20,008 nt of DNA from a virus. Each line of letters begins with the position of its first letter. Position 1 is the first letter of the stretch. Below are positions 1,015-20,008 of the stretch, piece by piece. The stretch is taken from positions 1-20,008 of IMG/VR virus record IMGVR_UViG_3300007344_000355, one strand, 5' to 3'. The translations under genes and the position numbers were made by a program. The notes under the pieces are model-generated. The model ran no database searches. It was not told the DNA's origin and saw only the letters and a program-made list of their open reading frames with translations.

Positions 1015-1015
1015 C

Positions 1016-1336: not shown

Positions 1337-1342
1337 AATTCT

Positions 1343-2554: not shown

Positions 2555-2555
2555 A

Positions 2556-4463: not shown

Positions 4464-4464
4464 A

Positions 4465-4845: not shown

Positions 4846-4866
4846 TGTTAGTTTTTAGTTACAAAT

Positions 4867-5424
4867 TTAATTAATTATTTTTGCTTTTTGCAAACTTTCC
4901 TGTATTAGCGTTTCCTTATCATAATCAGGTTTATTACAAAGCTCACCTATACTCTTTAAAAATTCTTCATTGACATCTAATATTTCAGCATAGTCTTTGA
5001 AGAAAACTTTAGGATATAAATAACTTCTCATATAAACGTAGTTAGCAGAATTCTCAGGAAAGAAAAATAGAATTTTGCTCTTTGTTTCATTACTCATTTG
5101 GCTGTATTTGCCATCAAGAAACTTTAACCAATCATTTTTTAAATCAGAAAAATCAAAAATATAAAGATGATTCTCAGAATTAATAGTATGTATTTTATAC
5201 AATCTATTATGTTTAATCAAAACTTTATTTTTAAAATCAGCAAACTCTTTCTTTTCTCTAGGATGATACAAACATATCAACTTCATATCCTCAGGTTTTA
5301 TGTTATCCCAAGCAATAAATGTTTCGCTTGGGACAACTTTTGCACCTTTTTTAATTCCAAGAAGCGGATATAAAAACATCTTGGATTTTTGAAAATACTT
5401 AGCATAAATAGATTTTATAGCCAT
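4867..5424 (-). CDS. Nuclease-partner family protein, copy 1 (unnamed family)
   Basis: This 185-aa protein starts three bases after the stop of the PD-(D/E)XK nuclease gene. It is paralogous to the product at 18440-19057, which sits in the same position behind a second nuclease gene. Shared features in order are: an N-terminal F.K…FL(Y/F)PLL.I.K block (here FQKSKMFLYPLLGIKKG, residues 11-27), a central hydrophobic strand followed by D.(x)…GKYSQMSNETKSKIL, and a C-terminal segment after V..D.E/S. No catalytic motif or metal site is evident in the shared positions. It is acidic/basic mixed, with no signal peptide or membrane helix. From the conserved pairing I infer that it binds or regulates the nuclease or loads it on DNA; no function is known to me. 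Identity between the copies is low, so only the pattern is secure. Confidence 0.8.
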   Translation of the reverse strand: MAIKSIYAKYFQKSKMFLYPLLGIKKGAKVVPSETFIAWDNIKPEDMKLICLYHPREKKEFADFKNKVLIKHNRLYKIHTINSENHLYIFDFSDLKNDWLKFLDGKYSQMSNETKSKILFFFPENSANYVYMRSYLYPKVFFKDYAEILDVNEEFLKSIGELCNKPDYDKETLIQESLQKAKIIN

Positions 5425-5427
5425 ATA

Positions 5428-6444: not shown

Positions 6445-7816
6445 CTTTTTGTACTATTGGTGTTTCTGCTACTGCAGGTTCTGTAACTTCTTCTTCTATT
6501 TCTACTGTGTCTTCTTCAATTTCAGGGTCCTCCTGGATTGTTAATTCTGCAGTATCAGGCTCAGAAACTGTAACTTCCTCTTCTGTATCTTCAATAATCT
6601 CCTCTTCAGTTGCAGAAGTTTCTATATGTTTATCTTCAAATTCAACAACATTATTCTTATATTTAATTCCTGTAGCTTCAGAAGCATCAGGATTTAATAT
6701 ATATGCTTGAGGAATTATATATTTTGAATAACCATTAGTTTTAAAATATTCTTTTTGATCATCCATTATAAAATCTAAAGCTTCTGTATTTAAAGAATTA
6801 TTCTCAATTAATCTTTTAATAACTTCATCTATATGATGTAAACCATACCCATCTATATCAAGATAATTTCTTAGAGATTTAAAATTAACATGATTTTTAC
6901 TCCTAGAGTTATTAATTTGATTATTGCAATGAAAGAATAACATTAAAAGATATAACATACTACCTTTATAATTACAATTTGCCATAATTTCCATAGCCAT
7001 AGTATGATTATCAGAATCAGAACTATTAAACATATTTCTAATATTTTGATAGGCATCTTCATCAATAGATGTAGATTCATCACCATTAATTACTTCAAGT
7101 AATGCACTTTGTTCTATTATAGTATGTTTTTCATATTCTCTATATAAATCTAAATTATCTTGATTAATTGTTCTTGACCAAGTTGAATTATTTTTAGTAG
7201 AATATACTTTAGAAAGTTCAAAACCATCTTTTACATTTAACTTTTTATAAAGAGTATTTACGTATTCTTGAGGATAATAACTATCAGGTCTGCACAACTT
7301 AGCTGTATTCCAATCTGTATAGATATATTCAGGCCATTCTCCATCAAATACTGTATTCTTAAGTTCTTCAATTCTGTGAAGCTGATAATCATAAGGTGTA
7401 TCTTTAGCTTGTTCTTTTAAAACTTCTAAAGCAGCTTCAAATACTTTACCTGAAACAGTATAATGCCAACCATCATTAAATAATTTGTATCCTGCTGAAT
7501 CACTACCAACAACAACTGTTGCAGAATCTATATCAGTAGTAGTTCTAATTTTATATTTAACAGCTAAATCCTTTAACTTTACTCTAGGTACAGTACATCC
7601 TTTCATGAAGTAAATTTTATCTTTCATTTGGGGAACCCAAGTCTGAGAGTTAAATTTTAAACCATGATCATTTGAATTTTTTGTATTTTGCAATATATAT
7701 AAAGTATCTACTTCTTCAACATAATAACTTTCTATATACTGTTTTTTATATTCATCTCTTTCTAACTTTGCACTTAGTCTAACAAACGGAACTCTTTTTA
7801 TTTTATCTTCTGTCAT
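6419..7816 (-). CDS. 465-aa hypothetical protein with acidic C-terminal tail
   Basis: No family is recognised. Residues 1 to about 385 appear folded and rich in Tyr, Asn and Lys, with a helical stretch around MLYLLMLFFHC and no nucleotide-binding motif. Residues about 385-465 are a Glu/Asp-rich, probably disordered tail ending in DEAEFDWF. The tail resembles those of the DUF932-like protein (ending DFDFA) and the SSB-like protein (ending DFNLD) in this window. This fits a common contact surface in the replication machinery, by analogy with the SSB tip; this is inference. The gene is first in its unit: its start is 11 bases downstream of a terminator-like hairpin (7828-7853). Its end overlaps the nuclease gene by 26 bp, so expression of the two is likely linked. 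Confidence 0.75.
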   Translation of the reverse strand: MTEDKIKRVPFVRLSAKLERDEYKKQYIESYYVEEVDTLYILQNTKNSNDHGLKFNSQTWVPQMKDKIYFMKGCTVPRVKLKDLAVKYKIRTTTDIDSATVVVGSDSAGYKLFNDGWHYTVSGKVFEAALEVLKEQAKDTPYDYQLHRIEELKNTVFDGEWPEYIYTDWNTAKLCRPDSYYPQEYVNTLYKKLNVKDGFELSKVYSTKNNSTWSRTINQDNLDLYREYEKHTIIEQSALLEVINGDESTSIDEDAYQNIRNMFNSSDSDNHTMAMEIMANCNYKGSMLYLLMLFFHCNNQINNSRSKNHVNFKSLRNYLDIDGYGLHHIDEVIKRLIENNSLNTEALDFIMDDQKEYFKTNGYSKYIIPQAYILNPDASEATGIKYKNNVVEFEDKHIETSATEEEIIEDTEEEVTVSEPDTAELTIQEDPEIEEDTVEIEEEVTEPAVAETPIVQKDEAEFDWF

Positions 7817-7827
7817 ATTTATAATTT

Positions 7828-7853
7828 AAAAGAGGGACTTTCATCCCTCTTTT
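7828..7853 (-). terminator. Terminator-like hairpin behind the AAA+ ATPase gene
   Basis: A perfect 10-bp inverted repeat, AAAAGAGGGA (7828-7837) and TCCCTCTTTT (7844-7853), encloses a 6-nt loop. On the minus strand it follows the stop of the MoxR-type gene by about ten bases and its descending arm ends in TTTT followed by AAATT. It would terminate minus-strand transcription. Because it is symmetrical it could act on the plus strand too, but no plus-strand gene ends here. The next start codon is only 11 bases further on. Confidence 0.75.
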
Positions 7854-7863
7854 GTTAAACAAT

Positions 7864-9039
7864 TTATTTTATAGTCATTTGAACAACTTTCTGATTTAAC
7901 ATAAGTTTTTGAAATTTAGGTTTATTACCATTCAAAATTTCTTTAACCATGTAATATCTTAAGTCATCAGTAAATGATTCGCAATCAGTCACAAGTGAAA
8001 TAATTCTGTCAATCATCTTTTGAGAAACAGAACCTTTGTCAGCTGTAACTAATGCATAGTTTATAATTCTGGTAGATATTATACTAGAAATATCTGCTCT
8101 AAAATCATCACCAACTCCAATACAAGAGTTTAAAGAACCTTTTACATAACTCCAATCATCATTGTTTAGAATTTGCTCAGGACTAATGATTTTATCTAGT
8201 TTATTATTAATAAACATAGCAAATAATGCAGATGGTTCTTCACCAATTGATCCATCACCAATCATATTAATCAATGGTAACTGATCTTCAAACTTTGGAA
8301 TAGAACTAATAGAGTTAAAGAAAGTAGTAATACTTCTAGGATTAACTTTTTTAGTTACAGTCTCAGGATTCATTAATAAGAAATTAATACATCGACCATC
8401 AATACCAACAGTTTCTGCCCACCGAGCCCAAACACTAGCATCAAATTTTACTTCAGTAGAAATAAATCTAGTTCTTTGAGCATCATCAAGACTAGTAACT
8501 TGATAGTCACCATTGTCTGGATTAGTAGTCAGGATTACATGCCAGTTCTTTGGAAGAGACCATGAAATATATTCTTGTCTATCAATTAACTCCATAGTAG
8601 CTTGCATAAATCTATGATCAGCACGAGTATAATCATCAAGAACTAAGAAACCGCCTTCACCTTTACCTTGAATCCATTCAGGTGCAGCATGAGACATTCT
8701 TTTATCTACAATTTTATAACCTTTCTTCATTGCGGCATCTACTTGATTTTCATTAATCCAAGTAGTCTGACCATCTTTGTTGGAAATCTTAAATTCTTTT
8801 ACAGGAAAACCAACAAGGTCACCTAGTTCTTCTATCTGAGATAGATTAATTTTCACAACATCCATACCCAACTCTTTACCAAGTTGAATAATTGCAGAAG
8901 TTTTACCAAGGCCCGCATCACCTTCAATGTTTACAGCAACAGGTACTTTACCTTCATTTTGAATGTGCTGATTGTTTTTCACCATGTGTTTTAAGAAGTC
9001 TTTTAACTCATCTACGTTTAGCTGTGTGCTATTGCTCAT
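7864..9039 (-). CDS. MoxR-type AAA+ ATPase
   Basis: This 391-aa ATPase has its AAA+ core near the N-terminus. Walker A is GDAGLGKTS (40-48), Walker B FLVLDD (131-136), sensor 1 TTNPDN (171-176), and an arginine-finger/second-region element DDAQRTRF lies at 185-192. These are typical of the MoxR/RavA branch. MoxR ATPases work as chaperones that remodel partners carrying a von Willebrand A (VWA) domain, using ATP and the partner's metal-ion site. The gene directly upstream (14-bp spacing) encodes such a VWA-like partner, so this is a standard MoxR-VWA pair. What the pair acts on in the phage cannot be read from the sequence. A possible role in replication-complex remodelling is inferred only from its place downstream of the primase. 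The last gene of its unit, it is followed by a hairpin. Confidence 0.9.
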   Translation of the reverse strand: MSNSTQLNVDELKDFLKHMVKNNQHIQNEGKVPVAVNIEGDAGLGKTSAIIQLGKELGMDVVKINLSQIEELGDLVGFPVKEFKISNKDGQTTWINENQVDAAMKKGYKIVDKRMSHAAPEWIQGKGEGGFLVLDDYTRADHRFMQATMELIDRQEYISWSLPKNWHVILTTNPDNGDYQVTSLDDAQRTRFISTEVKFDASVWARWAETVGIDGRCINFLLMNPETVTKKVNPRSITTFFNSISSIPKFEDQLPLINMIGDGSIGEEPSALFAMFINNKLDKIISPEQILNNDDWSYVKGSLNSCIGVGDDFRADISSIISTRIINYALVTADKGSVSQKMIDRIISLVTDCESFTDDLRYYMVKEILNGNKPKFQKLMLNQKVVQMTIK

Positions 9040-9053
9040 AATTTTTAATTTTT

Positions 9054-10271
9054 TTAAATTTCTAATCTTATTTGTTTTCCTGGTAAGCTATCATTAAAAT
9101 CAGATCTCTCTGACAATACCCATAGAATAGGTTTCCTGGGTTTTATACTTGTATATGCTTCACCATCTGTGAAGTAAATCAAACTTGTAAACTTTCTATT
9201 TTCTTCAAAATATTCTAGAATAGGATCAAAACTGGTCCCGCCTCTACCTGCAACTTCTAGTTCAAACTTTCCATCATATTGTTTAATGGATTGCATTCTG
9301 GAGTCACATTGTGCAATTGTAATATCAACACCTGCTTTGTACAAGTGATGTATTTCATTAATAAATTCTTTTAATTCATCATCACAAACAGAACCTGAGG
9401 TATCAATACCAACTAACATGTTCTGTCTCATCTTTATTTTTAGACCAGGATTATCAGAATATCTTTTATTCTCTTTTCTCCTAAGTTTTCTAGTAAAGAT
9501 TTTTGTAGATATACCAGTAAATCTTCTAATATATCTTTTCCAATTAAATTTAGGTGGTGTGATTTCCTCTAGTACAATTAGACCTTCAATCTCACCTGGT
9601 ACAAAACCTCTTTTCTTTAGAGTTTGTTCTTTAGCTTCTGTTAAAACTCTTTGAACTTGTTTTTCAATTAGTTTCTTTTCAGCATCAGGCATATTTTCAA
9701 ACTCTTCCCAATCATGATTAGGTAAATTAACATCTTTAATATTACCGTTTTCATCTATGGTAACTGTCATTTGACCTTGTCCCATACCATCAAGAAGTTT
9801 ATCCATATTTCCATCACCACTACTGCCTTGTTCTTGCTTATCTTTCTGTGCTTGTTGTAGCTTATCATAATAATATCTGCAACCAGCACGCCTATTAAGA
9901 TTAAGATCAGGATAATCATCTATATTAATACCACCTTCAGGCAACCAATCTTTATCTATATATTGATTGATTTCCATGTCCATTGCAATATTAGCAAGTT
10001 TCTTATCTGCAAACATTGTAAATGTGGTTAGATGTTGAAATGCAATATGAAGCAATTCATGTTTTAATAGACCAAGTCTATGTTCTTCAGATAGTGCTGT
10101 CCAAAACTTTTCACTTATCATAAGTTGAAAGTTGATTCCATTTTTACATACACCAGCTGTTTGTATTTTGTCATCCCATGACTTATGCAACATTAACAAA
10201 AAGAAACCATAATACGGTTCCTTTAACATCAAGTCTTTTGATGTTTTACTTAGTGAATCTTGTTTATTCAT
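9054..10271 (-). CDS. DUF2201-type protein: putative zinc metallopeptidase domain plus VWA-like domain
   Basis: This 405-aa protein has two domains. The N-terminal one carries KHELLHIAFQH (70-80) with an intact HExxH zincin motif (H71, E72, H75) and a downstream helix AMDMEIN (96-102) that may supply the third ligand. The middle (about 140-170) is Gly/Gln-rich and probably flexible. The C-terminal domain is VWA-like with a MIDAS metal site: GIDTSGS (288-294), GGTSF (344-348) and FTDGE (367-371). This is the layout of the DUF2201 family, which typically pairs with MoxR AAA+ ATPases, and the next gene is such an ATPase. Enzyme activity of the zincin part is not proven for the family, though the key residues are retained here. 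It starts one base after the GIY-YIG gene stop. Confidence 0.88.
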   Translation of the reverse strand: MNKQDSLSKTSKDLMLKEPYYGFFLLMLHKSWDDKIQTAGVCKNGINFQLMISEKFWTALSEEHRLGLLKHELLHIAFQHLTTFTMFADKKLANIAMDMEINQYIDKDWLPEGGINIDDYPDLNLNRRAGCRYYYDKLQQAQKDKQEQGSSGDGNMDKLLDGMGQGQMTVTIDENGNIKDVNLPNHDWEEFENMPDAEKKLIEKQVQRVLTEAKEQTLKKRGFVPGEIEGLIVLEEITPPKFNWKRYIRRFTGISTKIFTRKLRRKENKRYSDNPGLKIKMRQNMLVGIDTSGSVCDDELKEFINEIHHLYKAGVDITIAQCDSRMQSIKQYDGKFELEVAGRGGTSFDPILEYFEENRKFTSLIYFTDGEAYTSIKPRKPILWVLSERSDFNDSLPGKQIRLEI

Positions 10272-10272
10272 T

Positions 10273-10701
10273 TTAAATATTTCCTTTGTAAAATTTTCCT
10301 AGTATGTTTCCATTTAGGTATTCTTCTTTTTCAAGGACTTCTCTTTTAAACTGATATTTAGTTTCTTCATATGTTAGTTCTGTTTTAGAAAAACATATCT
10401 TAACCATATATCTTTTAATAGGAATTCCTGCTTTGTGGGCATCTTGCAGAACCTTATTACTACTATAGTAATTTTGATAACTAGGTTTAGTTATCATTGT
10501 GTACTTTTTAGTTCTTTTATCTGTCATTTCAGCTAATGCTTTTTTGCCAAATCTTTTTTTTCTAACACTAAAAAAGTTCTTTTTACCCACATACCTTACA
10601 GATTTACCATCAATGATTGCTTCCATTTCATACACAAAGCCTATGGCTCCTTCGGGAATCATTTCATCTTTAAACTCTACTGCTTTATATATCCAGCTCA
10701 T
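10273..10701 (-). CDS. GIY-YIG-like nuclease-fold protein
   Basis: This 142-aa protein has the hallmarks of a compact GIY-YIG domain: GFVY (21-24) and RYVG (36-39) replace GIY and YIG, followed by KKNFFSVRKKR with candidate catalytic Arg residues. SYQNYYSSNKVL (74-85) matches the Y..S element, EETKYQ (112-117) holds the candidate catalytic Glu, and N130 in YLNGNI the late Asn. Single-domain versions of this type occur in many phages as free-standing nucleases, some of them homing endonucleases. No DNA-binding extension is visible, and its start overlaps the primase stop by ATGA. That suggests a resident replication-module gene rather than a recent homing insertion. Cleavage activity is inferred from the motifs only. 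Confidence 0.75.
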   Translation of the reverse strand: MSWIYKAVEFKDEMIPEGAIGFVYEMEAIIDGKSVRYVGKKNFFSVRKKRFGKKALAEMTDKRTKKYTMITKPSYQNYYSSNKVLQDAHKAGIPIKRYMVKICFSKTELTYEETKYQFKREVLEKEEYLNGNILGKFYKGNI

Positions 10702-11681
10702 ACTAATTGTTTTAATAACGGAAGAAGTTTATCTCTAGTTTCAGTAAGACCATATTTTTTAATAGAGTCAGATAAATCCTTTTCCATATCAAGTATTACA
10801 TAATCAAAATTATATTTTTCTTTATATCTTTTCATAGATCTAATACCTGCTTCATCATTATCAAATAGAACAAATACTTTTTTGTATTTGCTTATTATCT
10901 TATTAAGCATGTGTTCAGGTATTAATGTATTCTCACTATCTGGTGCAATACATTCTGCATCATTTAACTTAAGTCTAGTAAAGGCCATTAAGTCTTTTAA
11001 AGAAGATGTTATTATTAAATATTTCTTATCAAATTTTAATTGATCAGAACCTTGAATATAATTACATATTTTGATAAATTTTTTATCAGAAACCTTAGGT
11101 TGATAAATTTTATACAATGTGCCATCATCTCTAAAATAACCATAAATGCTAAAACCCTTTATAGTTATAGAACTTACCTTACCTTTATCATCTTCTTTAC
11201 TCATTATATAGTAATCCAAAGGAGCAACATTATATTTCTCAAGTAGTCTTGAACCAATATTATATTTAGTCCAGTACTTTTGATCTATTGTTGTCCAATG
11301 TCTTATTTCATAATCAGTAACTTGATACTTGCTATATTCTTTATATTCTTTAATAGGATTGCAATCATTATTTAGTATATATTGATTATAATCTTCAATA
11401 ATTTTCATAGCAGCTTCACCACGACTTTTAAGATTAAAATAAACTTTAACTAATTCTACAGAATCACCACCTAGACCCGAAGAAAAATCTTTGAATTTGT
11501 ATCTATGTGCAGTTGTATCAAAATAAATACACATAGAAGGTGTTCTTTCTCTAGTATTAACTATAGATTTTATTTTTATATCTTGACCATTTAAATGATC
11601 TGATAATTGTAAGTAATATTCAAAAGGCCATCCAGTTGGAATATCCTCTAAATCAGAAATTAAATTTTTTGTTGAAATCAT
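10698..11681 (-). CDS. DnaG-like primase with degenerate TOPRIM and no zinc cysteines
   Basis: This 327-aa protein has the layout of a phage DnaG-type primase. The N-terminal region contains NTRERTPSM (42-50) and FKDFSSGLGGDSVEL (63-77), which correspond to the EktPSF and DF...GGD-x-I/V segments of primase zinc-binding domains. The zinc-ligand cysteines are absent. The TOPRIM part has YLIITSSLKDLMAF (221-234), where the usual E-G becomes S-S, and VLFDNDEAGIRS (271-282) with an intact D-x-D. Loss of the TOPRIM Glu is seen in other phage primases as I recall them, but here it may mean altered or weak activity. It is the first gene of its unit, starting about 19 bases after a hairpin, and overlaps the GIY-YIG gene by 4 bp. 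With the DnaB-type helicase it would prime lagging-strand synthesis. Confidence 0.82.
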   Translation of the reverse strand: MISTKNLISDLEDIPTGWPFEYYLQLSDHLNGQDIKIKSIVNTRERTPSMCIYFDTTAHRYKFKDFSSGLGGDSVELVKVYFNLKSRGEAAMKIIEDYNQYILNNDCNPIKEYKEYSKYQVTDYEIRHWTTIDQKYWTKYNIGSRLLEKYNVAPLDYYIMSKEDDKGKVSSITIKGFSIYGYFRDDGTLYKIYQPKVSDKKFIKICNYIQGSDQLKFDKKYLIITSSLKDLMAFTRLKLNDAECIAPDSENTLIPEHMLNKIISKYKKVFVLFDNDEAGIRSMKRYKEKYNFDYVILDMEKDLSDSIKKYGLTETRDKLLPLLKQLV

Positions 11682-11700
11682 ATAAATGGTTTTAGTTAAT

Positions 11701-11728
11701 AAAGGGGAACCTTTTCTGATTCCCCTTT
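11701..11728 (-). terminator. Terminator-like hairpin behind the SSB-like gene
   Basis: AAAGGGGAA (11701-11709) pairs perfectly with TTCCCCTTT (11720-11728) around a 10-nt loop. On the minus strand it follows the SSB-like gene stop by about 20 bases. Its descending arm ends in TTT followed by ATTAACTAAAA, so the T-tract is short. The primase start codon lies about 19 bases further on. Confidence 0.7.
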
Positions 11729-11747
11729 AAACTTCATAGTATAGTTA

Positions 11748-12437
11748 CTAGTCTAGGTTGAAATCAGAACTTGTATTGCTAGGTATAGCAAAGTCATCAT
11801 TATCATCAAAAGATTCAACTGGTTTGTTTTCAATCTTTTTTAGATGTTTTGCTTCATCATATTGAAGAACACTATTTGGATCCGAAGCATAACCATACTT
11901 TCTGTTTTGTGCTTTTGCAAACCAGCAGTCATATGCTATATATCCAGATTTGTTTTCATACTCTTTACCTGCAAGACAAACATGTAAATACTTTCCTTCA
12001 AAAGGTGCATCATTATTAAAGGCTTTTACAAAGTCTTCAATTGTTTCATGTTTATTATCTTGTGCTAAAAACCAATCATTAACTCCTAAAGCAGAAGTTA
12101 AGTTTTTAAGAAACATCATTATAGAATTGTCTCTTTGAATTTTAATACCAGATTTAGTTTCACCATCAGCAAATGCATATTGACTTGCCTTTACTCTACC
12201 AATCTGACCCTCATATCTACCTTTAGATTCATCATTAGCATCTTTTAGAAATCCTTCAAATCCATCTATAGGTTTTGTTTCCATATCAAGGATTAAATGA
12301 TATGCACCATCTATAAATCTAAATTCTTCTAATCTGACACCATTAATTTTTAATTCATGATTACCTGTAGAAATTGTTTTAGGCATGTTGTTACCACTAC
12401 CGCCTTCTGTCATTAAATCTGTTGTACTTAAAGCCAT
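11748..12437 (-). CDS. Putative single-stranded DNA-binding protein
   Basis: This 229-aa protein lies directly downstream of the Sak4-like ATPase gene. Residues about 20-180 look like a beta-rich domain (GNHELKINGVRLEEFRF, YHLILDMETKP, YLHVCLAGKEY) compatible with an OB-fold, but no signature motif proves it. The C-terminus (about 205-229) is acidic with phenylalanines (SFDDNDDFAIP…SDFNLD), as in SSBs, whose acidic tips recruit partner proteins. Sak4-type annealases in phages are commonly encoded beside their cognate SSB, which is the main contextual support. Other possibilities are an annealase accessory protein or an unrelated OB-fold protein. It ends in TAG and is the last gene of the UDG-to-SSB unit, followed by a hairpin. 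Confidence 0.6.
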   Translation of the reverse strand: MALSTTDLMTEGGSGNNMPKTISTGNHELKINGVRLEEFRFIDGAYHLILDMETKPIDGFEGFLKDANDESKGRYEGQIGRVKASQYAFADGETKSGIKIQRDNSIMMFLKNLTSALGVNDWFLAQDNKHETIEDFVKAFNNDAPFEGKYLHVCLAGKEYENKSGYIAYDCWFAKAQNRKYGYASDPNSVLQYDEAKHLKKIENKPVESFDDNDDFAIPSNTSSDFNLD

Positions 12438-12465
12438 TTGATTTTTGTTTTTTAATTATTAATTA

Positions 12466-13188
12466 TTACTTGTATATTTTATTCCAGTGAGTTTTTATCT
12501 CACCCTTTTCATTCATTTCAGAAATTACTATCTCTTCATTTCTTAAGTGGTCTGGTCTAGCACCACATGTTACTCCATCATTGTTTTTGAAATTAATAAT
12601 GGTTTGGTTACCTTTCCTATACATATATCCAATTGCATCTGCATTTGCACAAATTAAAGATTTAATCTTACCAGTTAAATCAATATTTGCGGCCATAACC
12701 ATCTCGCCTTTATCATCAACTACTTTATCTTTAATATGACCTGATAAAATAATACAGGGAGCTAAAGTATCAATAAAATCTAGAACTTGGAAAAAAGCTT
12801 GACGAATATATAAATAACCTGCACCATTAGCTAGTGTAGTTACATTATCTCCATCAAAGTTTTTACCCATTGGAGTTTTTCTGTATAATTTTACAGCTAA
12901 CGGCATAACCATTTCTTCTAATGCAGTTACAGTATCTATAGTAATATAGTCATACGGTTTATCTGCTTCTTTAATAGCTTTGCCTGCATCCAATAGTTCT
13001 TGTAGGTTATTAACTTTTACTTTTAATGCTTCAACATACTCACTACCATTTTCGAGATCCAATATAAGATTATTCTTTAAACCTGCATAAGCAGTTGTTT
13101 TACCTGTTTTAGGTTTACTATAAATAATTAATCTTTTAGGATTTACTCTTTCTGCTTTTACTTTTTGAGTTGGAAGTACTATACCCAT
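12466..13188 (-). CDS. Sak4-like RecA-fold ATPase (single-strand annealing/recombination)
   Basis: This 240-aa ATPase has Walker A YSKPKTGKTT (23-32), Walker B DYITIDT (80-86) and a later IILSGHIKDK segment (146-155) in the place of the RecA sensor/motif region. This is the compact RecA-core layout of the phage Sak4 / AAA_24 group, which carries out single-strand annealing or strand exchange with phage SSB. The next gene encodes the likely SSB (28-bp gap) and PD-(D/E)XK nucleases lie elsewhere in the window, completing a recombination set. The product lacks the N- and C-terminal domains of cellular RecA. The start is one base past the stop of the upstream gene. Confidence 0.85.
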   Translation of the reverse strand: MGIVLPTQKVKAERVNPKRLIIYSKPKTGKTTAYAGLKNNLILDLENGSEYVEALKVKVNNLQELLDAGKAIKEADKPYDYITIDTVTALEEMVMPLAVKLYRKTPMGKNFDGDNVTTLANGAGYLYIRQAFFQVLDFIDTLAPCIILSGHIKDKVVDDKGEMVMAANIDLTGKIKSLICANADAIGYMYRKGNQTIINFKNNDGVTCGARPDHLRNEEIVISEMNEKGEIKTHWNKIYK

Positions 13189-13189
13189 G

Positions 13190-13756
13190 TTATTTATCCA
13201 TTTTAGTTAATAATATATTTGATAAATTTCTCAATTCATTACCTACTTTAATTAGCGCATCTCTTAAATCATCTTGATTATCTGATTTAGGTTTCAAGCT
13301 AACTTCTAAGTACTCTTTAGCAAAATTTGGAAAATCTGCTTCTTGTGTTTCTACAGGAGGATTCTCTAGTCTTTCTTGGTATTTTGCATAAGGTATTTCT
13401 TCACCATTAGGTAAAACAGCAACTAGTTCATCCATAGGAACTATATATACTTCATAATCATTACCAGACTTACTAGTCTTTTGCTCTAAAGGATATTCCT
13501 CTTTATAAAAAGGATTAAACTTTAATTTGTATAAAGTGTGTGTAGGATCTTCAGATACACCTTCAAAGTCACTAAGTTCTGTATAGATATCTTTACCTAC
13601 TTTAAATTCATTAGGAAAGAATTGCATTTTAAGGTCTTCTCCTGGAGGAGCCCATGCAGATTTAGCAACAAAGTAGGGATCTTTTATACCTAGCTTTTTA
13701 AATGTTGGCAAATGGGTTGCCATGAGAATTTTGGTATTCTCCTGCCTTGTATTCAT
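13190..13756 (-). CDS. 188-aa hypothetical protein between helicase and Sak4 genes
   Basis: No family is recognised. The sequence has a Trp/Pro-containing N-terminal domain (AKSAWAPPGEDLKMQFFPNE, about 31-50) and a central part with paired Lys/Glu strands. The C-terminus is helical (about 155-188, ending LRNLSNILLTKMDK) and could form a coiled coil or docking helix. The start overlaps the helicase stop by ATGA and the stop lies one base before the Sak4 start, so it is co-translated with both. Position suggests a recombination or replication accessory factor; no motif shows this directly. Confidence 0.75.
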   Translation of the reverse strand: MNTRQENTKILMATHLPTFKKLGIKDPYFVAKSAWAPPGEDLKMQFFPNEFKVGKDIYTELSDFEGVSEDPTHTLYKLKFNPFYKEEYPLEQKTSKSGNDYEVYIVPMDELVAVLPNGEEIPYAKYQERLENPPVETQEADFPNFAKEYLEVSLKPKSDNQDDLRDALIKVGNELRNLSNILLTKMDK

Positions 13757-14757
13757 ATTTGTATGTTTGTGTTTGTTTTCATTGGTACATCCATTTCTAC
13801 TATTCTTATAGTATCTCTATCTAGTTTAAAGAAACTCATTCTTGTATCACCATTTCTACATTTTAAGAAATGAAATACTAGAGTTTCAGGATCATTTATT
13901 TGTATTCTTTCAGGGCCATAATATCTAATCTTTCTTGCAGCTGGTTTATTAATACCAAGTACTATATCAGCATGCTGTAATAATGCATCAGCACCAAATA
14001 GATCAGAATCTAAAACATAGTTTCCATATGTACCTTCTATAGCACGTTTAGGGTCATCTATATTTCTATTTAATTGACTTAAGATTACAAATGACAAAGG
14101 ATAACTTCTTTTCATAAAAGTTAGGGCTTCTCCAAGATTATATAACATTTCAAATCTATCCTTCTCATGTGAATCTCTTTTAAATAGAGCTGAGTGATCT
14201 ACTGTTACTAATAATTTTGGATAAACCTTTTGTCCATCTTTTTCAACACAGTTTTGTTCAAAGTGATAATGTATACTTGCGCAAAACTCATTTACAGTAC
14301 AAGGTCTATAAACAGAGAATACTCTGTTATTTTGAGTCAATGTACTTGTGTATTGTTTACATTTATTATAAATATCTTCTGCAAGTGGTTCATATTTACT
14401 ATGTAAAACTCCATAGTCTTTTTGAGTGATTGCTGAAAATGCTCTCATACCAAGAGTTTTTTCAGGCATTTCAAATTGAAATTGTAATACTTGAAAATTT
14501 TGATCTTGATTTAAAGCAATAACTTCAGTAACAAGTTGTTCCATGAACAAAGTCTTACCAACACCAGGTCTAGCACCAACAACAGTTAAAGTATTCCACT
14601 CTAATCCATTTAAGGTAGCATCATTAAATTTAGGCCATGCTGTTTTTAGACTTTTAATTCTTCCGTCCATCCTGCCTCTCATCTCTATAAGAGCCTTCTC
14701 ATAAGCACGAACTTTGCTAATAGCCTTTAAAGGCTTTGCATTTTTAAATTGTTCCAA
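13753..14757 (-). CDS. DnaB-type replicative helicase (RecA-like domain only)
   Basis: This 334-aa protein corresponds to the C-terminal motor domain of DnaB/RepA-type hexameric helicases. Walker A is GARPGVGKT (61-69), FQFEMP (93-98) matches the DnaB segment following it, Walker B is KLLVTVDH (181-188), and motif H3 VILSQLNRNID lies at 224-234. A late KCRNGDT-type segment is typical of DnaB C-termini. The N-terminal domain that binds primase and loader in cellular DnaB is missing, replaced by about 40 residues. It would unwind the fork 5'-3' ahead of the family B polymerase. It sits one base after the 195-aa gene and overlaps the 188-aa gene by 4 bp. Confidence 0.92.
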   Translation of the reverse strand: MEQFKNAKPLKAISKVRAYEKALIEMRGRMDGRIKSLKTAWPKFNDATLNGLEWNTLTVVGARPGVGKTLFMEQLVTEVIALNQDQNFQVLQFQFEMPEKTLGMRAFSAITQKDYGVLHSKYEPLAEDIYNKCKQYTSTLTQNNRVFSVYRPCTVNEFCASIHYHFEQNCVEKDGQKVYPKLLVTVDHSALFKRDSHEKDRFEMLYNLGEALTFMKRSYPLSFVILSQLNRNIDDPKRAIEGTYGNYVLDSDLFGADALLQHADIVLGINKPAARKIRYYGPERIQINDPETLVFHFLKCRNGDTRMSFFKLDRDTIRIVEMDVPMKTNTNIQI

Positions 14758-14758
14758 C

Positions 14759-15346
14759 TTATACTATTTTTTCTCTGAAAATATCATTTTCATTAGAGCT
14801 ACTTTCATTTAGCATATCACAGTAAGTAGCTAAATCTGATTCAAAAGATTTATCAATGTTTTGTTTTCTAATGAAATATTGGGATGTTCTCATAAATTCA
14901 TAATTTTTAGAACTATACTCTTCCACATACTTTTGTGTTGCTTTAAATATAGTTGCCCACTCGTAATCATAATTTTCAAAGAACCATCTAAAACCTGCTT
15001 CTAGATTTTTTACATTGGTTCTTGCATATTTACCACTTCTTAATTTTGTTGAGGGAAATATTTCATTGTATGTTTTAATACATACATCAAATTTATCACC
15101 CATTAAATCTGTTGAAGTTTTCTTCTTACTCTTTCTAAAATAAGAGTTTAATTCCTCTACAAATATATGACTTTTTTGTGAAAGAGTCAAATCTTCATTT
15201 AACCAGCCATCTGTTTGTAATCTAGTAATTTCAATACTACTATTAACAAATGAATTAACAGACACCTTATTCTTAATACAATAAAGTACATACAAAGAAT
15301 TAGGTGTCATTTTTTGTTTTAATAATTTATTAAAGATTTCATCCAT
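14759..15346 (-). CDS. Hypothetical replication protein, possible helicase loader
   Basis: This 195-aa protein is encoded immediately upstream of the helicase gene (1-bp gap) and just after UDG (1-bp gap). The N-terminal 70 residues have a winged-helix-like pattern (TPNSLYVLYCIKNK, then a helix and DGWLNEDL). The rest is helical with aromatic residues, including FRWFFENYDYEWATIFKATQ and a Y.FMRTSQYFI.K segment near the C-terminus, a style seen in phage helicase-loader and DnaD-like proteins. No Walker motif is present, so it is not a DnaC-type ATPase. The loader role is inferred from position and fold pattern only; it could also be an origin-binding or transcription factor. Confidence 0.7.
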   Translation of the reverse strand: MDEIFNKLLKQKMTPNSLYVLYCIKNKVSVNSFVNSSIEITRLQTDGWLNEDLTLSQKSHIFVEELNSYFRKSKKKTSTDLMGDKFDVCIKTYNEIFPSTKLRSGKYARTNVKNLEAGFRWFFENYDYEWATIFKATQKYVEEYSSKNYEFMRTSQYFIRKQNIDKSFESDLATYCDMLNESSSNENDIFREKIV

Positions 15347-15347
15347 A

Positions 15348-16058
15348 TCACCAAGTTACTGAAAAATTATTATTCTTCTTTAAAATTTGATTTATCTCAT
15401 TAAATACATTTTTACAATCCCATTCTGAACCTTTTACATATACAGCACTAGCAGGATGATTTACATAAAACTTATAATTTGTATCATTTACACAGTCTTT
15501 CCATTCTTGAGCTTGTTTACCCATATATACGTAAATCAAACCTGGATTGCCAAATGTTAAATGATCAAATAGATATGCTATAAAAGGTTTCCATATGCTA
15601 TAATGTTGTCCAACTTTACCTACAACTGTAGTTAAAGCAGTATTTAACATTAGTATACCTTGATTAGCCCATCTTGTTAAATCTGGATTATGTGATTGAC
15701 CTACTCCATCATATACAGTTCTGTTTACTGCATCTAAAATAAACTTCAAACTTGGTTGTAATTGCATTGTATTACTACAACTAAATGCAATACCATCTGC
15801 AACATCAAGTTTTGGATAAGGATCTTGCCCTACCATGATAACACTAAGTTTGTCATAAGGGCATTCTTCAAAAGCTCTGAATAACTGGCTGATTTTAGGT
15901 GTAAATCTTTGATTATCTTTTGATAATCTAATTAGCTGTTTTAATATGTTATCAAAATCATTGCTAAATATAAAAGATTTAAGAAATCCCCAACCAGAGG
16001 CTTCTACTTTTTTAAATAATTTTTGTTTAATATCTTCTATGTCTATAGTAGTTGTCAT
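15348..16058 (-). CDS. ung: Uracil-DNA glycosylase (family 1)
   Basis: This 236-aa enzyme removes uracil from DNA. It has the family 1 motifs: water-activating loop VGQDPYP (76-82, catalytic D79), GIAFS (89-93), LMLNTALTT (136-144, uracil-binding Asn139) and HPASAV (201-206, catalytic H201) in place of HPSPLS. The intercalation loop reads HPASAVYV, so the Leu of the canonical HPSPLS is replaced by Ala/Val. An N-terminal extension of about 65 residues precedes the core. It heads the minus-strand unit UDG - loader - DnaB - unknown - Sak4 - SSB and faces a divergent plus-strand gene across 31 bp, which must hold or lie near the promoter. Confidence 0.94.
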   Translation of the reverse strand: MTTTIDIEDIKQKLFKKVEASGWGFLKSFIFSNDFDNILKQLIRLSKDNQRFTPKISQLFRAFEECPYDKLSVIMVGQDPYPKLDVADGIAFSCSNTMQLQPSLKFILDAVNRTVYDGVGQSHNPDLTRWANQGILMLNTALTTVVGKVGQHYSIWKPFIAYLFDHLTFGNPGLIYVYMGKQAQEWKDCVNDTNYKFYVNHPASAVYVKGSEWDCKNVFNEINQILKKNNNFSVTW

Positions 16059-16089
16059 ATTTTTTATATCTTTGATAAAATTTGAATAA

Positions 16090-16425
16090 ATGGAAATTAA
16101 GAAAGTTAAAGAAATGAAAGATGATGCTTTACTAAATGTAAAAGTAAATAAAACTTATTACCAAATGGCAAAAGCGGCATTATTTACTCTTTTACAAGAT
16201 GTATATAGCACTGAAAAAGGTAGTCCTGATACTTTTGTAAAAGATCTTGTATCAAAAGAATACAAAGATCAAACAGATAAGGAAAGAGCTTTCTATACTT
16301 TAACTTTACTTGTTGGTGAAATAGAAAAACAAGCTGTTGAAAACGATGCTTATTTTGAAAAAGAAATTGATCCTGAAAAGTTTAAAGAAGATTTGGAAAA
16401 GAGTGAAAACTCTAGTGAAGGTTAA
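16090..16425 (+). CDS. 111-aa plus-strand hypothetical protein inside the minus-strand region
   Basis: This is the only plus-strand gene among the replication genes. The product is hydrophilic and helical: VKVNKTYYQMAKAALFTLLQ (18-37), a YTLTLLVGEIEKQAVEND segment and a C-terminus rich in Lys/Glu (DPEKFKEDLEKSENSSEG). There is no nucleotide-binding or membrane motif. The codon-like amino-acid makeup and absence of an equally good opposing frame support a real gene. It is divergent from UDG (31-bp gap) and its last 14 bases overlap the 3' end of the 119-aa minus-strand gene. Transcripts of the upstream minus-strand cluster would therefore run antisense to it. TATCTTTG at 16067-16074 resembles the Bacteroidota -7 promoter element (TAnnTTTG), but I see no matching -33 box. 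Confidence 0.65.
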   Translation: MEIKKVKEMKDDALLNVKVNKTYYQMAKAALFTLLQDVYSTEKGSPDTFVKDLVSKEYKDQTDKERAFYTLTLLVGEIEKQAVENDAYFEKEIDPEKFKEDLEKSENSSEG

Positions 16426-16771
16426 CATTATATAATTCTCCAATTTCAATACAAACCTGAATAGCTTGTGTTAACTCTTCTTTACTGCAGTCAGCAAAAG
16501 ATTTTAAATCATCTCCTACAATAAGACCTGCTTTATCTTTAACTATCAGTTTCATTTCATTGAAGCTGTATCCGCTTTCTTTTGCTAGTTCTCTAATACA
16601 TTTGTGTACTTTGTTTATTTGTGCAGTACTGCCAATAGCATCCACTAATGACATAAATACATCAACTTCTTGACCTTCAGAAAGTTTTTGAATAAATAAA
16701 TCTAAGGCAACTTTAGCTTCTTTAGAGTAAACTAGTTTACCATTCTTAACCTTTAATTTTCCTGAAAACAT
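16412..16771 (-). CDS. 119-aa protein with possible NinB/Orf-like pattern
   Basis: This is a small helical protein. The middle (KVHKCIRELAKESGYSFNEM, about 55-74) and the end (KSFADCSKEELTQAIQVCIE, about 90-109, then IGELYN) are arranged like lambda NinB/Orf-family recombination mediators. Those have a helix plus E-x-W/M-K segment followed by a (K/R)S-S..SK.E...LI…G element. The similarity is distant and judged by eye. A recombination-mediator role would suit a genome with Sak4 and SSB. It is the last of the run of small genes, overlaps the upstream gene by 26 bp and converges with the plus-strand gene, overlapping its end by 14 bp. Confidence 0.65.
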   Translation of the reverse strand: MFSGKLKVKNGKLVYSKEAKVALDLFIQKLSEGQEVDVFMSLVDAIGSTAQINKVHKCIRELAKESGYSFNEMKLIVKDKAGLIVGDDLKSFADCSKEELTQAIQVCIEIGELYNVNLH

Positions 16772-16997
16772 CTATAAGTTCTTTAACTATTTTAGGATCT
16801 AGTATTTCACAGTCTGGATCAGACATGAATACAGTCCATTCACCATCAGCTCCTACTTCATCACTTTCAGAACTATATAATACTAGATCTTGAATAAGTT
16901 CTAGATTATAATAATAGTAATCATACCCATTCTGACTTTCAGAATCAGGTATTATTTCTTTTTTAAAACCTAATGCAAGTAAATCTTTTTCAGTCAT
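16746..16997 (-). CDS. 83-aa acidic hypothetical protein
   Basis: This is a small acidic protein with an N-terminal TEKDLLALGFKKE start, a tyrosine cluster (YDYYYYN, about 25-31), a strand pair and a C-terminal helix (DPKIVKELIDVFRKIKG). The L..LGF.KE opening followed by aromatic strands is a common plan for small phage proteins of unknown role. It overlaps the upstream gene by 8 bp and the downstream gene by 26 bp, which supports coupled translation. No function can be read. Confidence 0.65.
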   Translation of the reverse strand: MTEKDLLALGFKKEIIPDSESQNGYDYYYYNLELIQDLVLYSSESDEVGADGEWTVFMSDPDCEILDPKIVKELIDVFRKIKG

Positions 16998-17403
16998 TGT
17001 TTTCTAATTTTTGTTTTTTACTCCATACTTCTTTGTTGAGAATCTTAGACTCATAGTCTTCTCTACATTTAATATAAATACTTTTTTTGATATTAAATTC
17101 TCCATGTTCTTTAATTCTTTCTTTTCTGAAAAAATTAATTACTTGAGAAGCTACAAACCAATTTTCTTCATCTTTGGATTCTAATAATCTAACAGTATTA
17201 TTAAAATTATCTTCTGACATATAATTAAGATACTGGAGTAATCTTAATTCTGCAAGAAGAATAAAAGGTTTGTATGTATTTATTTTACTACCCATTTGAT
17301 ACATATGCCATAACATATGTAAATTTTTACATTCAGGAGCATCTGTTATTTCATAATGCTCTTTACAAATCTTTTTTGATAAATTTTTTATTCTTTGTTC
17401 CAT
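16990..17403 (-). CDS. 137-aa helical hypothetical protein
   Basis: No family is recognised. The protein is basic and mostly helical, with HMLWHMYQMGSKINTYKPFI (about 29-48) followed by LLAELRLLQYLNYM. A charged C-terminal half contains FFRKERIKEHGEF and ends in KKQKLENND. Two cysteines (13 and 25) precede His residues but do not make a clear metal site. Its start lies inside the end of the 39-aa gene (16-bp overlap) and its end overlaps the 83-aa gene by 8 bp. Confidence 0.65.
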   Translation of the reverse strand: MEQRIKNLSKKICKEHYEITDAPECKNLHMLWHMYQMGSKINTYKPFILLAELRLLQYLNYMSEDNFNNTVRLLESKDEENWFVASQVINFFRKERIKEHGEFNIKKSIYIKCREDYESKILNKEVWSKKQKLENND

Positions 17404-17507
17404 GATAAAATCATATTTCTTACTTTTTTACCTAAATCCATATCATTAGGATTTTCTTTTACAAGTTTTTCAATAGAACGAATATTAGGTTTTTTCTTTT
17501 TCTTCAT
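17388..17507 (-). CDS. 39-aa basic small protein
   Basis: This short gene fills the gap between the mini-metallopeptidase gene and the 137-aa gene. It starts with ATG at 17505-17507, 23 bp inside the upstream gene, and ends with TAA at 17388-17390, 16 bp inside the downstream one. The product begins MKKKKKPNIRSIEKLVKENP and continues NDMDLGKKVRNMILSWNKE. The pattern I.KL....P.D.DLGK.VR.(M/I) looks like a conserved little helical protein seen as short ORFs in phages, which is recollection only. Without it there would be an 81-bp hole in an otherwise gap-free run of genes. Confidence 0.55.
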   Translation of the reverse strand: MKKKKKPNIRSIEKLVKENPNDMDLGKKVRNMILSWNKE

Positions 17508-17769
17508 TTAATAAAGTTTTAGTTTCAGCATTCACCTGGTCTTCTGACCAATCAGCATACTTAATATGCAGTAACTCATGAATAATATCTTCTTCTGTAA
17601 GATCTCTATCATGAAATATTACTGCACTTTTATTTTTAAAATCACGATCAATACCTATAAAGTAACAGTCTTCTGCTGGACAATCACATAGAACCTGTTC
17701 ATTGTTTAAAGGTTCTAATTCAACTGTCCAATCAGTTAACTCTAACTTCTTAAGCCATTTGTCAATCAT
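17485..17769 (-). CDS. 94-aa minimal zinc-metallopeptidase-like protein
   Basis: This very small protein carries EEDIIHELLHIKY (59-71) with an intact HExxH motif (H64, E65, H68). It is preceded by a strand pair (TDWTVELEP; SAVIFHDRDL) as in single-domain zincins. The third zinc ligand is not certain; E74-E82 region residues in DWSEDQVNAE are candidates. C28, C30 and C35 cluster in the middle. The HELLHI core is identical to that of the DUF2201-type protein at 9054-10271, although nothing else in the two proteins is alike. It may be an active peptidase, a toxin/antitoxin-type factor or a binding protein. The ATG is preceded by the repeated leader TTAAACCAAAACAAAG, and the gene overlaps its neighbours by 8 and 23 bp. 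Confidence 0.7.
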   Translation of the reverse strand: MIDKWLKKLELTDWTVELEPLNNEQVLCDCPAEDCYFIGIDRDFKNKSAVIFHDRDLTEEDIIHELLHIKYADWSEDQVNAETKTLLNEEKEKT

Positions 17770-18103
17770 CTTTGTTTTGGTTTAATTTAACAATGTCTAT
17801 TAACTTATCAAGACAAGCAAGTTCTGCTTCTTCGTAGGTTTGAAACTCAAAAGCATTAAATATATGTAGCACACCACCTATATTCATAATAAAACTTTCA
17901 TGTCCAATCCCATTTATCATGTGACCTAAGCCATATTTCTCTCTAAAAAACCTGAATACCTGTTGGTAGAGTGGTGCTTTTAATACTTCAACCATTTCTG
18001 TATAGAGATTACCTCCTCCATCATAATATCCAAAACAAGGTTCATCAAAACCAAGTTCTTTGAGTTTAATCGCCAACTCATAAGGTACAAATTCATTTTT
18101 CAT
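17762..18103 (-). CDS. 113-aa hypothetical phage protein
   Basis: The N-terminus (FVPYELAIKLKELGFDEPCF, 5-24) is followed by APLYQQVFRFFREKYGLGHM (about 43-62) and a C-terminal YEEAELACLDKLIDIVK helix. As I remember, proteins with this three-block arrangement recur in Bacteroidota prophages and plasmid-like phages, always without known function. There is no metal or nucleotide motif. The ATG is preceded by the repeated leader TTTAAACCAAAACAAAG shared with the next gene downstream. It overlaps the upstream gene by 11 bp and the downstream gene by 8 bp. Confidence 0.75.
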   Translation of the reverse strand: MKNEFVPYELAIKLKELGFDEPCFGYYDGGGNLYTEMVEVLKAPLYQQVFRFFREKYGLGHMINGIGHESFIMNIGGVLHIFNAFEFQTYEEAELACLDKLIDIVKLNQNKDD

Positions 18104-18304
18104 CTTTGTTTTGGTTTAAATAAGTACCATCTTCTTCACATTCATTACCGTTCTCATCTTCATAGCCGAGAAAATAACAAGTACAATCAGTACCATAATT
18201 ATGATTTTCATAATCTTCTTTTGTAATGATTAAGTCTTGTACACCTAACCTTACATATACTTCTTTAGCTTTCTCTTTACTCATTTTATTTATTTTGGTT
18301 TAAA
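17767..18304 (-). repeat. Three copies of a TTTAAACCAAAA leader before start codons
   Basis: On the minus strand TTTAAACCAAAA or its 11-base match occurs at 18293-18304, 18109-18120 and 17775-17785. It lies 8, 5 and 5 bases before the ATG of the 63-, 113- and 94-aa genes. Copies two and three are identical over 19 bases up to and including the ATG (18101-18119 and 17767-17785). It is probably a translation-initiation element replacing a Shine-Dalgarno sequence, or the trace of gene duplication with divergence of the coding parts. Confidence 0.7.
18093..18284 (-). CDS. 63-aa acidic hypothetical protein
   Basis: This small acidic protein has three cysteines, two of them in DCTC (33-36), and acidic loops (YEDENGNECEEDGTYL). 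The N-terminus SKEKAKEVYVRLGVQDLI forms a likely strand-helix start. Its last residues (LNQNKDEK) are encoded by the leader repeat of the next gene read in another frame. The 113-aa product ends the same way (LNQNKDD), because it also overlaps a copy of that leader. It starts 15 bp after the 37-aa gene. No function is recognised. Confidence 0.6.
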   Translation of the reverse strand: MSKEKAKEVYVRLGVQDLIITKEDYENHNYGTDCTCYFLGYEDENGNECEEDGTYLNQNKDEK

Positions 18305-18413
18305 GTTTATTTTCTTCTTTAATTTCTATTAGTAAGTTAATAGCATCTTCATAGTCACCATTTTCTATGGCAAGTATTACCATGTCTATGTCTTCTTCAG
18401 TAGTTAGTACCAT
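18300..18413 (-). CDS. 37-aa acidic helical small protein
   Basis: ATG at 18411-18413 and TAA at 18300-18302 give the product MVLTTEEDIDMVILAIENGD followed by YEDAINLLIEIKEENKL. It is acidic and predicted helical throughout. It fills the stretch between the hairpin at 18431-18452 and the 63-aa gene, and its stop codon is embedded in a copy of the TTTAAACCAAAA leader that serves the next gene. The ordered amphipathic makeup and the fit with its neighbours favour a real gene, though its small size keeps this uncertain. Confidence 0.5.
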   Translation of the reverse strand: MVLTTEEDIDMVILAIENGDYEDAINLLIEIKEENKL

Positions 18414-18426
18414 ATATTTTAAGATT

Positions 18427-18452
18427 AAAAAGGGGAGTATTAAAACTCCCCT
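18427..18452 (-). terminator. Intrinsic terminator behind the second nuclease-partner cassette
   Basis: AGGGGAGT (18431-18438) pairs with ACTCCCCT (18445-18452) around a 6-nt loop. On the minus strand it is followed by TTTTAATCTT. The upper arm is part of the last codons of the partner gene, and the stop codon lies in the loop. The next small gene starts about 17 bases beyond. Confidence 0.78.
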
Positions 18453-19057
18453 GATGGTTGAAAATGTTTGCTGTTTGTAGAATACTCTGATGCAATGCTG
18501 CTATCTAAAATTTCCCGTTCACAAGATATTATAGGCCATACTTCCTGATCTTTTAAATCAGCAATTGACCCAGGATTACTAAGACGTTCTTCCCAGCTAT
18601 CTTTTAACACCTTCGCTTTATTCATAATAAGCGGAAGAGTATAAATTTTACCAGAAAAATAGCTATTGCCTAATATTAGTTTTTTTGCTTCAGCGCTAAC
18701 TTCAGAATATAAACCTTTTATAATTAGATTATAATCAGGTATAAAATCTGAAGGAACGCTAAATACTAATATTATACAACCTCTAACTTCGTAATCATCT
18801 ATGTAATTTGGAAAAGATTGAATAGTAGAATAAAATTTATCAAACTCCACATCTCTGTAATCTCTAACTAGTAGAAATATATATCCCTTGTCATTATACT
18901 TAGTAATATTAGAATCTTTAAGGTACGCATTAAGAAATCTAGAACGAAACTTAATTCTACCCCAAGGATCTAATATATTACAGTCAAATAAACTTTTAGG
19001 TATATTCAACAATGGGAATAAAAAAGTCGCAGTTTTTGTAAATTTATTCTTTGTCAT
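18440..19057 (-). CDS. Nuclease-partner family protein, copy 2
   Basis: This 205-aa protein overlaps the second PD-(D/E)XK nuclease gene by 4 bp (ATGA). It shares with the 185-aa product at 4867-5424 an N-terminal FTKTATFLFPLLNIPKS block (residues about 6-22; copy 1 has FQKSKMFLYPLLGIKKG). It also shares a central block ending GLYSEVSAEAKKLIL (copy 1: GKYSQMSNETKSKIL), and a similar spacing to a V.KD segment and a C-terminal E-W/C region. The copy adds about 20 residues and a C-terminus rich in Ser. No catalytic residues stand out, and there is no signal or membrane segment. Together with copy 1 it defines a small family encoded immediately behind a nuclease; a regulator, inhibitor or DNA-targeting subunit would fit. 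The family is unknown to me. Confidence 0.78.
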   Translation of the reverse strand: MTKNKFTKTATFLFPLLNIPKSLFDCNILDPWGRIKFRSRFLNAYLKDSNITKYNDKGYIFLLVRDYRDVEFDKFYSTIQSFPNYIDDYEVRGCIILVFSVPSDFIPDYNLIIKGLYSEVSAEAKKLILGNSYFSGKIYTLPLIMNKAKVLKDSWEERLSNPGSIADLKDQEVWPIISCEREILDSSIASEYSTNSKHFQPSGEF

Positions 19058-20008
19058 TGATTTTTAAGTATTATATGTCCGTTATTATAATATTCCATTG
19101 GGTAATCCCATCTATCGTGTTCAACGGCATACTTATACCTATTAATAGCATCATCTAGACCTTCATATTTGCTGTTATATACAGTGCCGCCTCTAAGACC
19201 TATATCATAAACCTCAGCTGTTACTCTAAAACACATTGGATTATTATATAACTCTTTTTCTACAACTATATAAAGAAAATCATCAAGCACATAACCTTGT
19301 TCTTTGACTAATCTATACAACCAATCTTGTGATTTAAGGCCTAATGTATACATAGCAGCTTGAAAATCATAACGATACTTCCAGAATTCATATTGAAAGC
19401 CTAGTACACTTTTACTAGTAGTCTTAAAATCTATAGGAGTAATTATCTTTTTTTCATGATCTATAATAACTCTATCTAACTCGCCTTTAAATTGAAGATC
19501 TCTGTATTCAAATTCTACAACTAATTTATCTTTAATTTCTAGACTAGAAGATTTTTTAGAACTACAGTATTCTTTAGTATAAGGATCCTGGCGCATTGCA
19601 GTCACACATAACACAGCTTTAGAATATTCCTCGTTGCTTACTACTTGCCTATCTTTTGCTTCACTAAGAAATTGAAAATAACTAGAGCCTAATTCTATGA
19701 TTTTATTGACTCTAGTGTCTTCTTTCCAGTTAGGCTGATAGTTTTGATATTGACAATTTCGTAATATAAGATCTCTATATTCATTATTATTCAATGTATC
19801 AGATTCAGTTATCTCTACATTTTGTTCTTTTAGATCTCTATATACTCCCTCAACAATAGTCTTAACAGTATCAGTAACAGAAATACTATCAGGTAATACC
19901 ACAAATTTTTCATCGAATTCTGCTCTATCACTAGTTAACATTAAATCTACTATAGTGCCAAATACAAAATGAGCACCAGTGGATGATTCCATTTGGTCTC
20001 TAGCTTTC
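19054..20008 (-). CDS. PD-(D/E)XK nuclease (RecB/Cas4-like), copy 2, N-terminus outside window
   Basis: The frame stays open to the window edge (residues KARDQ precede the ATG at 19990-19992). The N-terminal S.S.INKLL-type segment of copy 1 has no counterpart here, so the true start lies beyond the window. Counting from that Met, the nuclease core has FKGELD (168-173, D173), PIDFKTTSKS (186-195; D188, K190) and QAAMY (211-215). These match FKGILD, DLKTTSK and QAALY of copy 1. The VVE.E/VVD.. strand and C-terminal YP-E-Y segment also correspond. One difference: the conserved His in GRVIH of copy 1 is Asp here (FGTIVD, D15), which may change metal binding or activity. It is followed directly by the copy 2 partner gene. 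Confidence 0.88.
   Translation of the reverse strand, partial: KARDQMESSTGAHFVFGTIVDLMLTSDRAEFDEKFVVLPDSISVTDTVKTIVEGVYRDLKEQNVEITESDTLNNNEYRDLILRNCQYQNYQPNWKEDTRVNKIIELGSSYFQFLSEAKDRQVVSNEEYSKAVLCVTAMRQDPYTKEYCSSKKSSSLEIKDKLVVEFEYRDLQFKGELDRVIIDHEKKIITPIDFKTTSKSVLGFQYEFWKYRYDFQAAMYTLGLKSQDWLYRLVKEQGYVLDDFLYIVVEKELYNNPMCFRVTAEVYDIGLRGGTVYNSKYEGLDDAINRYKYAVEHDRWDYPMEYYNNGHIILKNQ

Follow-up and report, generated by a model that had tools for sequence, protein, structure and literature searches.

Exonucleases of the RecE/lambda-Exo class degrade double-stranded DNA processively in the 5'-3' direction. In phage lambda, the Gam protein, which blocks the end-resection nuclease of the host, is found beside Exo and Beta. 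Cas4 proteins bind an iron-sulfur cluster through four conserved cysteines. For crAss-like phages, the function of the nucleases is described as unclear in the excerpted text of PMC10136315, and no downstream partner family is named beside this nuclease in the excerpts of either PMC7886860 or PMC10136315; the literature covered is open-licence only, and an earlier description is possible.

Here we analysed a 20,008-nucleotide stretch of viral DNA (IMG/VR record IMGVR_UViG_3300007344_000355, positions 1 to 20,008; hereafter the window) that contains two nuclease genes, each followed directly by the gene of a small protein, its partner. The nuclease is already known; the partner appears to be unnamed in every family library searched (Pfam, PHROGs and NCBIfam). 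An earlier note on this DNA, made from the sequence alone, had described the two pairs as a cassette duplicated in one genome, with two proteins that work together and with different substrates or stages for the two copies.

Organization of the two gene pairs

Both nuclease/partner pairs lie on the minus strand. Pair A consists of nuclease A (positions 5428-6444, 338 aa; phrog_412, E=8.2e-24; Pfam PDDEXK_1, E=3.8e-7) and, after a gap of 3 nt, partner A (4867-5424, 185 aa). In pair B, the start codon of partner B (18440-19057, 205 aa) shares a 4-nt overlap with the stop codon of nuclease B (19054-20007; phrog_412, E=1.9e-26; PDDEXK_1 and DUF3799 above the Pfam cut-offs), so that the same gene order and near-zero spacing reported in the earlier note are found in both pairs. 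The contig end cuts the N-terminus of nuclease B, leaving 317 of about 343 aa in the window; comparison with a second contig, L024 (12,404 bp), places the first 26 residues beyond the end, and a full-length copy is present at 7815-8846 of L024.

The kinship of the nucleases, also claimed in that note, is upheld: the two are homologous (28% identity, E=3e-20) and both match phrog_412, 'exonuclease VIII', and PDDEXK_1. Residues D204, D219-x-K221 and Q242-xxx-Y246 are invariant among 17 aligned nucleases spanning the A, B and C types, which gives them the PD-(D/E)XK catalytic core (D, D-x-K, QxxxY) of RecE/lambda-Exo-like exonucleases, and Foldseek returned the putative exonuclease 3l0a, the Cas4-like ACE1, MGME1, AddAB and RecB as fold matches. 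The nuclease is thus most likely a RecE/lambda-Exo-like PD-(D/E)XK exonuclease of the replication-block type PDDEXK_b, presumably with the polarity of that class. No annealase gene adjoins it. A gene for a Sak4-like single-strand annealing protein (12466-13188, minus strand; phrog_124, E=1.9e-28) lies outside the pair, about 6 kb from nuclease A, as pathway context, and a Sak4 annealase is also encoded by six distant relatives.

Origin of the two pairs

Positions 1-18304 of the window are 99.9% identical to, and collinear with, the IMG/VR contig G001 (26,181 bp), and positions 18100-20007 are 99.4% identical to L024. The remaining part of L024 shows 70-80% identity to the window in two short regions only. 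Base-by-base comparison with G001 and L024 revealed that high identity between these two contigs (98.5%) is confined to 205 bp, positions 18100-18304 of the window, exactly at the switch; elsewhere they are 70-80% identical in two short regions and otherwise unalignable. The window agrees with G001 at positions 18108 and 18209 and with L024 at 18273; the change from phage A to phage B therefore falls inside the shared stretch, between 18209 and 18273. Neither contig carries two pairs, and G001, which runs about 6.6 kb beyond the switch, has a single nuclease in its whole length. Along L024 lie genes for primase, VWA protein and MoxR, then a homologue of the window gene at 6419-7816 (27% identity, E=3e-39), a 164-aa gene, and after these nuclease B and partner B. 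Pair A in the window occupies the place that matches pair B in L024, which argues that A and B are very probably single-copy orthologous pairs from two phages and not duplicates. A duplication of the cassette in one genome is rejected as very improbable on the collinearity with G001 and L024, each with one pair. One match per record was likewise obtained in each of 56 phage records (44 and 17, five of them shared) with a nuclease profile that is blind to the structural-block nuclease type described in the excerpted part of PMC7886860.

The simplest reading of the window, and in all probability the correct one, is a chimeric assembly of two phages. A natural recombinant phage genuinely carrying both pairs, to which the 98.5% identity of the 205-bp stretch against 70-80% for the other shared DNA of the two parents would lend some weight, is improbable: beyond the join the two parent contigs continue differently, the switch is only 1.7-1.8 kb from the contig end, and two nucleases of this type occur in no other searched record. 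In addition, a junction-spanning pattern that matches the window had no match among the contigs of the viral collection, which may exclude the window's own record. Because the contig brings together two phages, each with A or B as its single-copy orthologue, neither the duplication proposed in the earlier note nor its proposal that the two copies differ in substrate or stage is supported.

The 205-bp stretch is occupied for the most part by a 63-aa ORF on the minus strand (18093-18284 of the window, 9616-9804 of L024; phrog_37603, E=9.2e-12). Since this stretch is far more alike than the other DNA shared by the parents, it suggests a recent natural horizontal exchange in this region between otherwise divergent phages. 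It also calls for caution, because an apparent duplication was probably created by a shared stretch of just 205 bp.

The partner protein family

The partners of A and B are barely similar as single sequences (E=0.003), and hhalign of family A against a single B sequence gave a probability of only 7.5%. As these single-sequence and one-sided comparisons are too weak, family profiles are needed on both sides; with them, A and B matched at 96.5% (E=8e-10) in a collinear alignment of 155 columns. A further group, C, is more distant and matched partner B at 99.8% and partner A at 91.3%. Control comparisons did not exceed 1.3% for 11 further gene families from this phage or 5.5% for 100 column shuffles, and the homology of the small proteins that the note had proposed therefore stands. 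Similarly, tblastn with single partners found no match in cultured phages, so that profiles were required here too, and HMMs of the partner family matched gp044 of Cellulophaga phage phi14:2 (E=7e-24), gp49 of Flavobacterium phage Fpv1 (E=6e-14), cr4_1 gp28 (3e-19), cr55_1 gp72 (2e-8) and cr52_1 gp36 (3e-6), with weak matches in cr50_1 and cr130_1. In the same kind of comparison, membership was not established for the small genes downstream of the nuclease in cr53_1, cr115_1 and Bohxovirus, and DAC17_77 was rejected as a partner candidate.

Neither partner A nor partner B has a match in Pfam or NCBIfam or a significant match in PHROGs. The AlphaFold model of partner B (pLDDT 94.0, pTM 0.88) returned nothing at E<=0.001 in a fold search against the PDB; the C-terminal domain of MotA was a weak match (5jlt with probability 0.33 in the PDB search, Bp7 MotA with probability 0.66 among viral models). 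Against the viral models of BFVD, the search, which takes no account of gene neighbourhood, returned partner-like proteins of phi14:2 (199 aa) and of seven crAss phages: cr4_1 (204 aa), cr118_1 (188 aa), cr1_1 (158 aa), cr56_1 (161 aa), cr124_1 (168 aa), cr7_1 (148 aa) and cr6_1 (113 aa). In each of the eight phages the gene that follows the exonuclease has exactly this length, and the two sets were equated by organism and length, not by accession cross-reference. Giant-virus proteins also appeared among the fold matches, from Tupanvirus (A0A6N1NMF2, E=9.5e-6), Catovirus (A0A1V0S9U2, 7.9e-4) and mimivirus (L792, Q5UQ03, 2.4e-3).

A common fold together with profile similarity was found for the partners of A, B, C, phi14:2, Fpv1 and Suoliviridae. 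On these comparisons, the partner is an unnamed alpha/beta family of 160-210 aa, real and common to A and B.

Distribution of the pair in viruses

Among all viral loci retrieved, members of the partner family stand directly behind the nuclease in 187 pairs, 139 of them distinct, mostly at a spacing of -4 to +6 nt. The only viral partners without a checked nuclease neighbour are three at contig ends and three frame-broken fragments, the other half of which adjoins the nuclease; the expectation of the earlier note that family members lie next to nucleases is thus confirmed for viruses. Several B members were first located via the nuclease, and the A and B scans were searched by the partner alone, with the nuclease not required. 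Two contigs have a partner gene split by an apparent frameshift beside an intact nuclease (L023, 10001-10566; L108, 11014-11641). When L004, another contig, is compared with the window at 4867-6444, identity is about 100% in the nuclease region and 85-89% in the partner gene, and it changes sharply close to the boundary between the two genes; the contrast between about 100% for the nuclease and about 86% for the partner indicates that close partner variants can be exchanged alone.

The partner family is also found behind the exonuclease in phi14:2, Fpv1 and human-gut Suoliviridae, and in cr7_1 a 45-aa ORF lies between the two genes. The other neighbours of the pair vary between lineages: A has a DNA polymerase module, phi14:2 an NTP pyrophosphatase, Fpv1 a DNA-binding protein and Suoliviridae a giant gene on the opposite strand. 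That the adjacency is kept in crAss-like phages of several families suggests that both proteins take part in the same DNA-processing step.

The window itself has no capsid gene, and the assignment to Crassvirales, by homologous major capsid protein (MCP) and portal, was made on relatives of the window phage. B- and C-type relatives match the crAss-like MCP of phi14:2 at E about 1e-43 and its portal at 1e-105 or better; A-type relatives match more distantly, at about 1e-9 and at 1e-12 to 1e-26, respectively. The exceptions are one B-type record with neither match (G034) and one A-type record without an MCP match (G007).

Nucleases and partners that stand alone

In six gut Steigviridae records the nuclease is present with no partner behind it. 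The gene after the exonuclease encodes a ribonucleotide reductase in five of the six and an unrelated protein in DAC17, and the partner profile had no match in five of these genomes and a weak match elsewhere in that of cr106_1.

The reverse situation occurs in bacteria. All five matches in a bacterial genome collection (L252-L256) are stand-alone proteins that carry an extra zinc-ribbon-like motif at the C-terminus; neither their contigs nor their genomes contain the nuclease. Homologues with this zinc ribbon (L252-L256; L262 and L263; L280 and L282-L285) are 230-256 aa long and carry the motif CDRCNGQG...CFKCYG. They come from Flavobacteriales and other Bacteroidota assemblies with no nuclease nearby, and their neighbours include DUF3127, TOTE-type PDC-M16A/B genes, ShosA/DprA-like, WYL, RtcR and AbiEi. 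Shorter stand-alone homologues without the zinc ribbon were also observed in bacteria (L264, L265, L266 and L271; also L281, L286 and L287). These repeatedly adjoin an unnamed protein of about 160 aa, and DUF3127 in one case. The neighbour of about 160 aa has no Pfam family, and an NTF2-like label for it was dropped for lack of Pfam support. The bacterial homologues, some with the zinc ribbon and several located in defence islands of Flavobacteriales, might be phage partners that hosts have recruited against crAss-like phages, whose exonuclease complex they would sense, decoy or poison; we regard this conjecture as quite unlikely.

Proposed function of the pair

Gene order, spacing, partner homology, the catalytic motif and adjacency across deeply diverged phages are direct observations. 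The reading we propose, to which we give about an even chance, makes the pair a conserved operon unit of two genes, in which an accessory protein supports a RecE-like exonuclease in processing DNA ends or in recombination, the second copy in the window coming from the other phage. The exonuclease and its partner of 160-210 aa would be translated together as one operon unit; the exonuclease would resect DNA ends to make single strands, which the Sak4-like annealase of the phage would pair in recombination and replication; and the partner would be an accessory factor of this step, binding either the nuclease or its DNA substrate. The polarity of the exonuclease, the role of the partner and any physical contact between the two are what we infer here.

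Mirror-tree correlation between nuclease and partner is high overall because of shared ancestry. When the background of MoxR and primase was removed, the partial correlation of the distance matrices was r=0.12 for A and 0.31 for B/C, with no clear excess. A fused AlphaFold model of pair A, built as a same-frame read-through with the stop replaced by Gly, reached a pTM of 0.58 and gave no confident arrangement. The claim that the two proteins work together draws its plausibility from the deep conservation of adjacency; co-evolution without clear excess, the Steigviridae nuclease without a partner and the bacterial partner without a nuclease count against it.

These same results would fit a partner that has work of its own in DNA metabolism, with single-stranded DNA or other replication proteins as conceivable targets, and that is only co-translated with the nuclease: co-evolution is not clearly above background, the fused model has no interface, and the bacterial homologues stand alone without a nuclease, several near DUF3127 genes. 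The viral partner is nevertheless never found away from the nuclease, even though the other neighbours differ by lineage, and we consider this explanation possible but rather unlikely. A partner directed at host functions, for instance a block of a host end-resection nuclease in the manner of lambda Gam, could account for its place beside a recombination exonuclease and for homologues near bacterial defence genes; given that no sequence or fold likeness to a known inhibitor was found, and that the viral partner is always tied to the phage nuclease, it is improbable. Least probable of all is an antitoxin-like inhibitor that shields phage DNA from its own nuclease, as adjacency and translational coupling might suggest, for in a toxin-antitoxin-like system the nuclease would not be expected without its inhibitor, and six gut Steigviridae have the nuclease with no adjacent partner while partners stand alone in bacteria.

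The partner, conserved beside the replication-block nuclease of both environmental and human-gut phages, offers a concrete protein for testing. It has neither a PDB fold match nor a family name, and phi14:2 and Fpv1, which are in culture, both encode it.

Comparison with known systems

The nuclease described here is of the same kind as the replication-block nuclease PDDEXK_b of Crassvirales, as described in the excerpted text of Yutin et al. 2021 (PMC7886860), and the major capsid and portal proteins of the relatives of the window phage match those of phi14:2. Its likeness to RecE/ExoVIII and lambda Exo consists of the phrog_412 match and the D...DxK...QxxxY core. RecE and lambda Exo have RecT or Beta adjacent to them; here, by contrast, the Sak4-like annealase is encoded about 6 kb away, and the gene adjoining the nuclease encodes an unnamed protein without a PDB fold match. 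With Cas4 the window-type nucleases share the RecB-like PD-(D/E)XK fold, including a Foldseek match to the Cas4-family ACE1, and some records label the nuclease gene 'Cas4Csa1'. However, no cysteine is invariant or nearly invariant in the 17 aligned nucleases, and there is therefore no sign of the Cas4 iron-sulfur cluster. Cellulophaga phage phi14:2 has the same arrangement as the window: the exonuclease gp043, at 480 aa a longer nuclease, is followed at once by gp044, annotated only as hypothetical, which is a member of the partner family.
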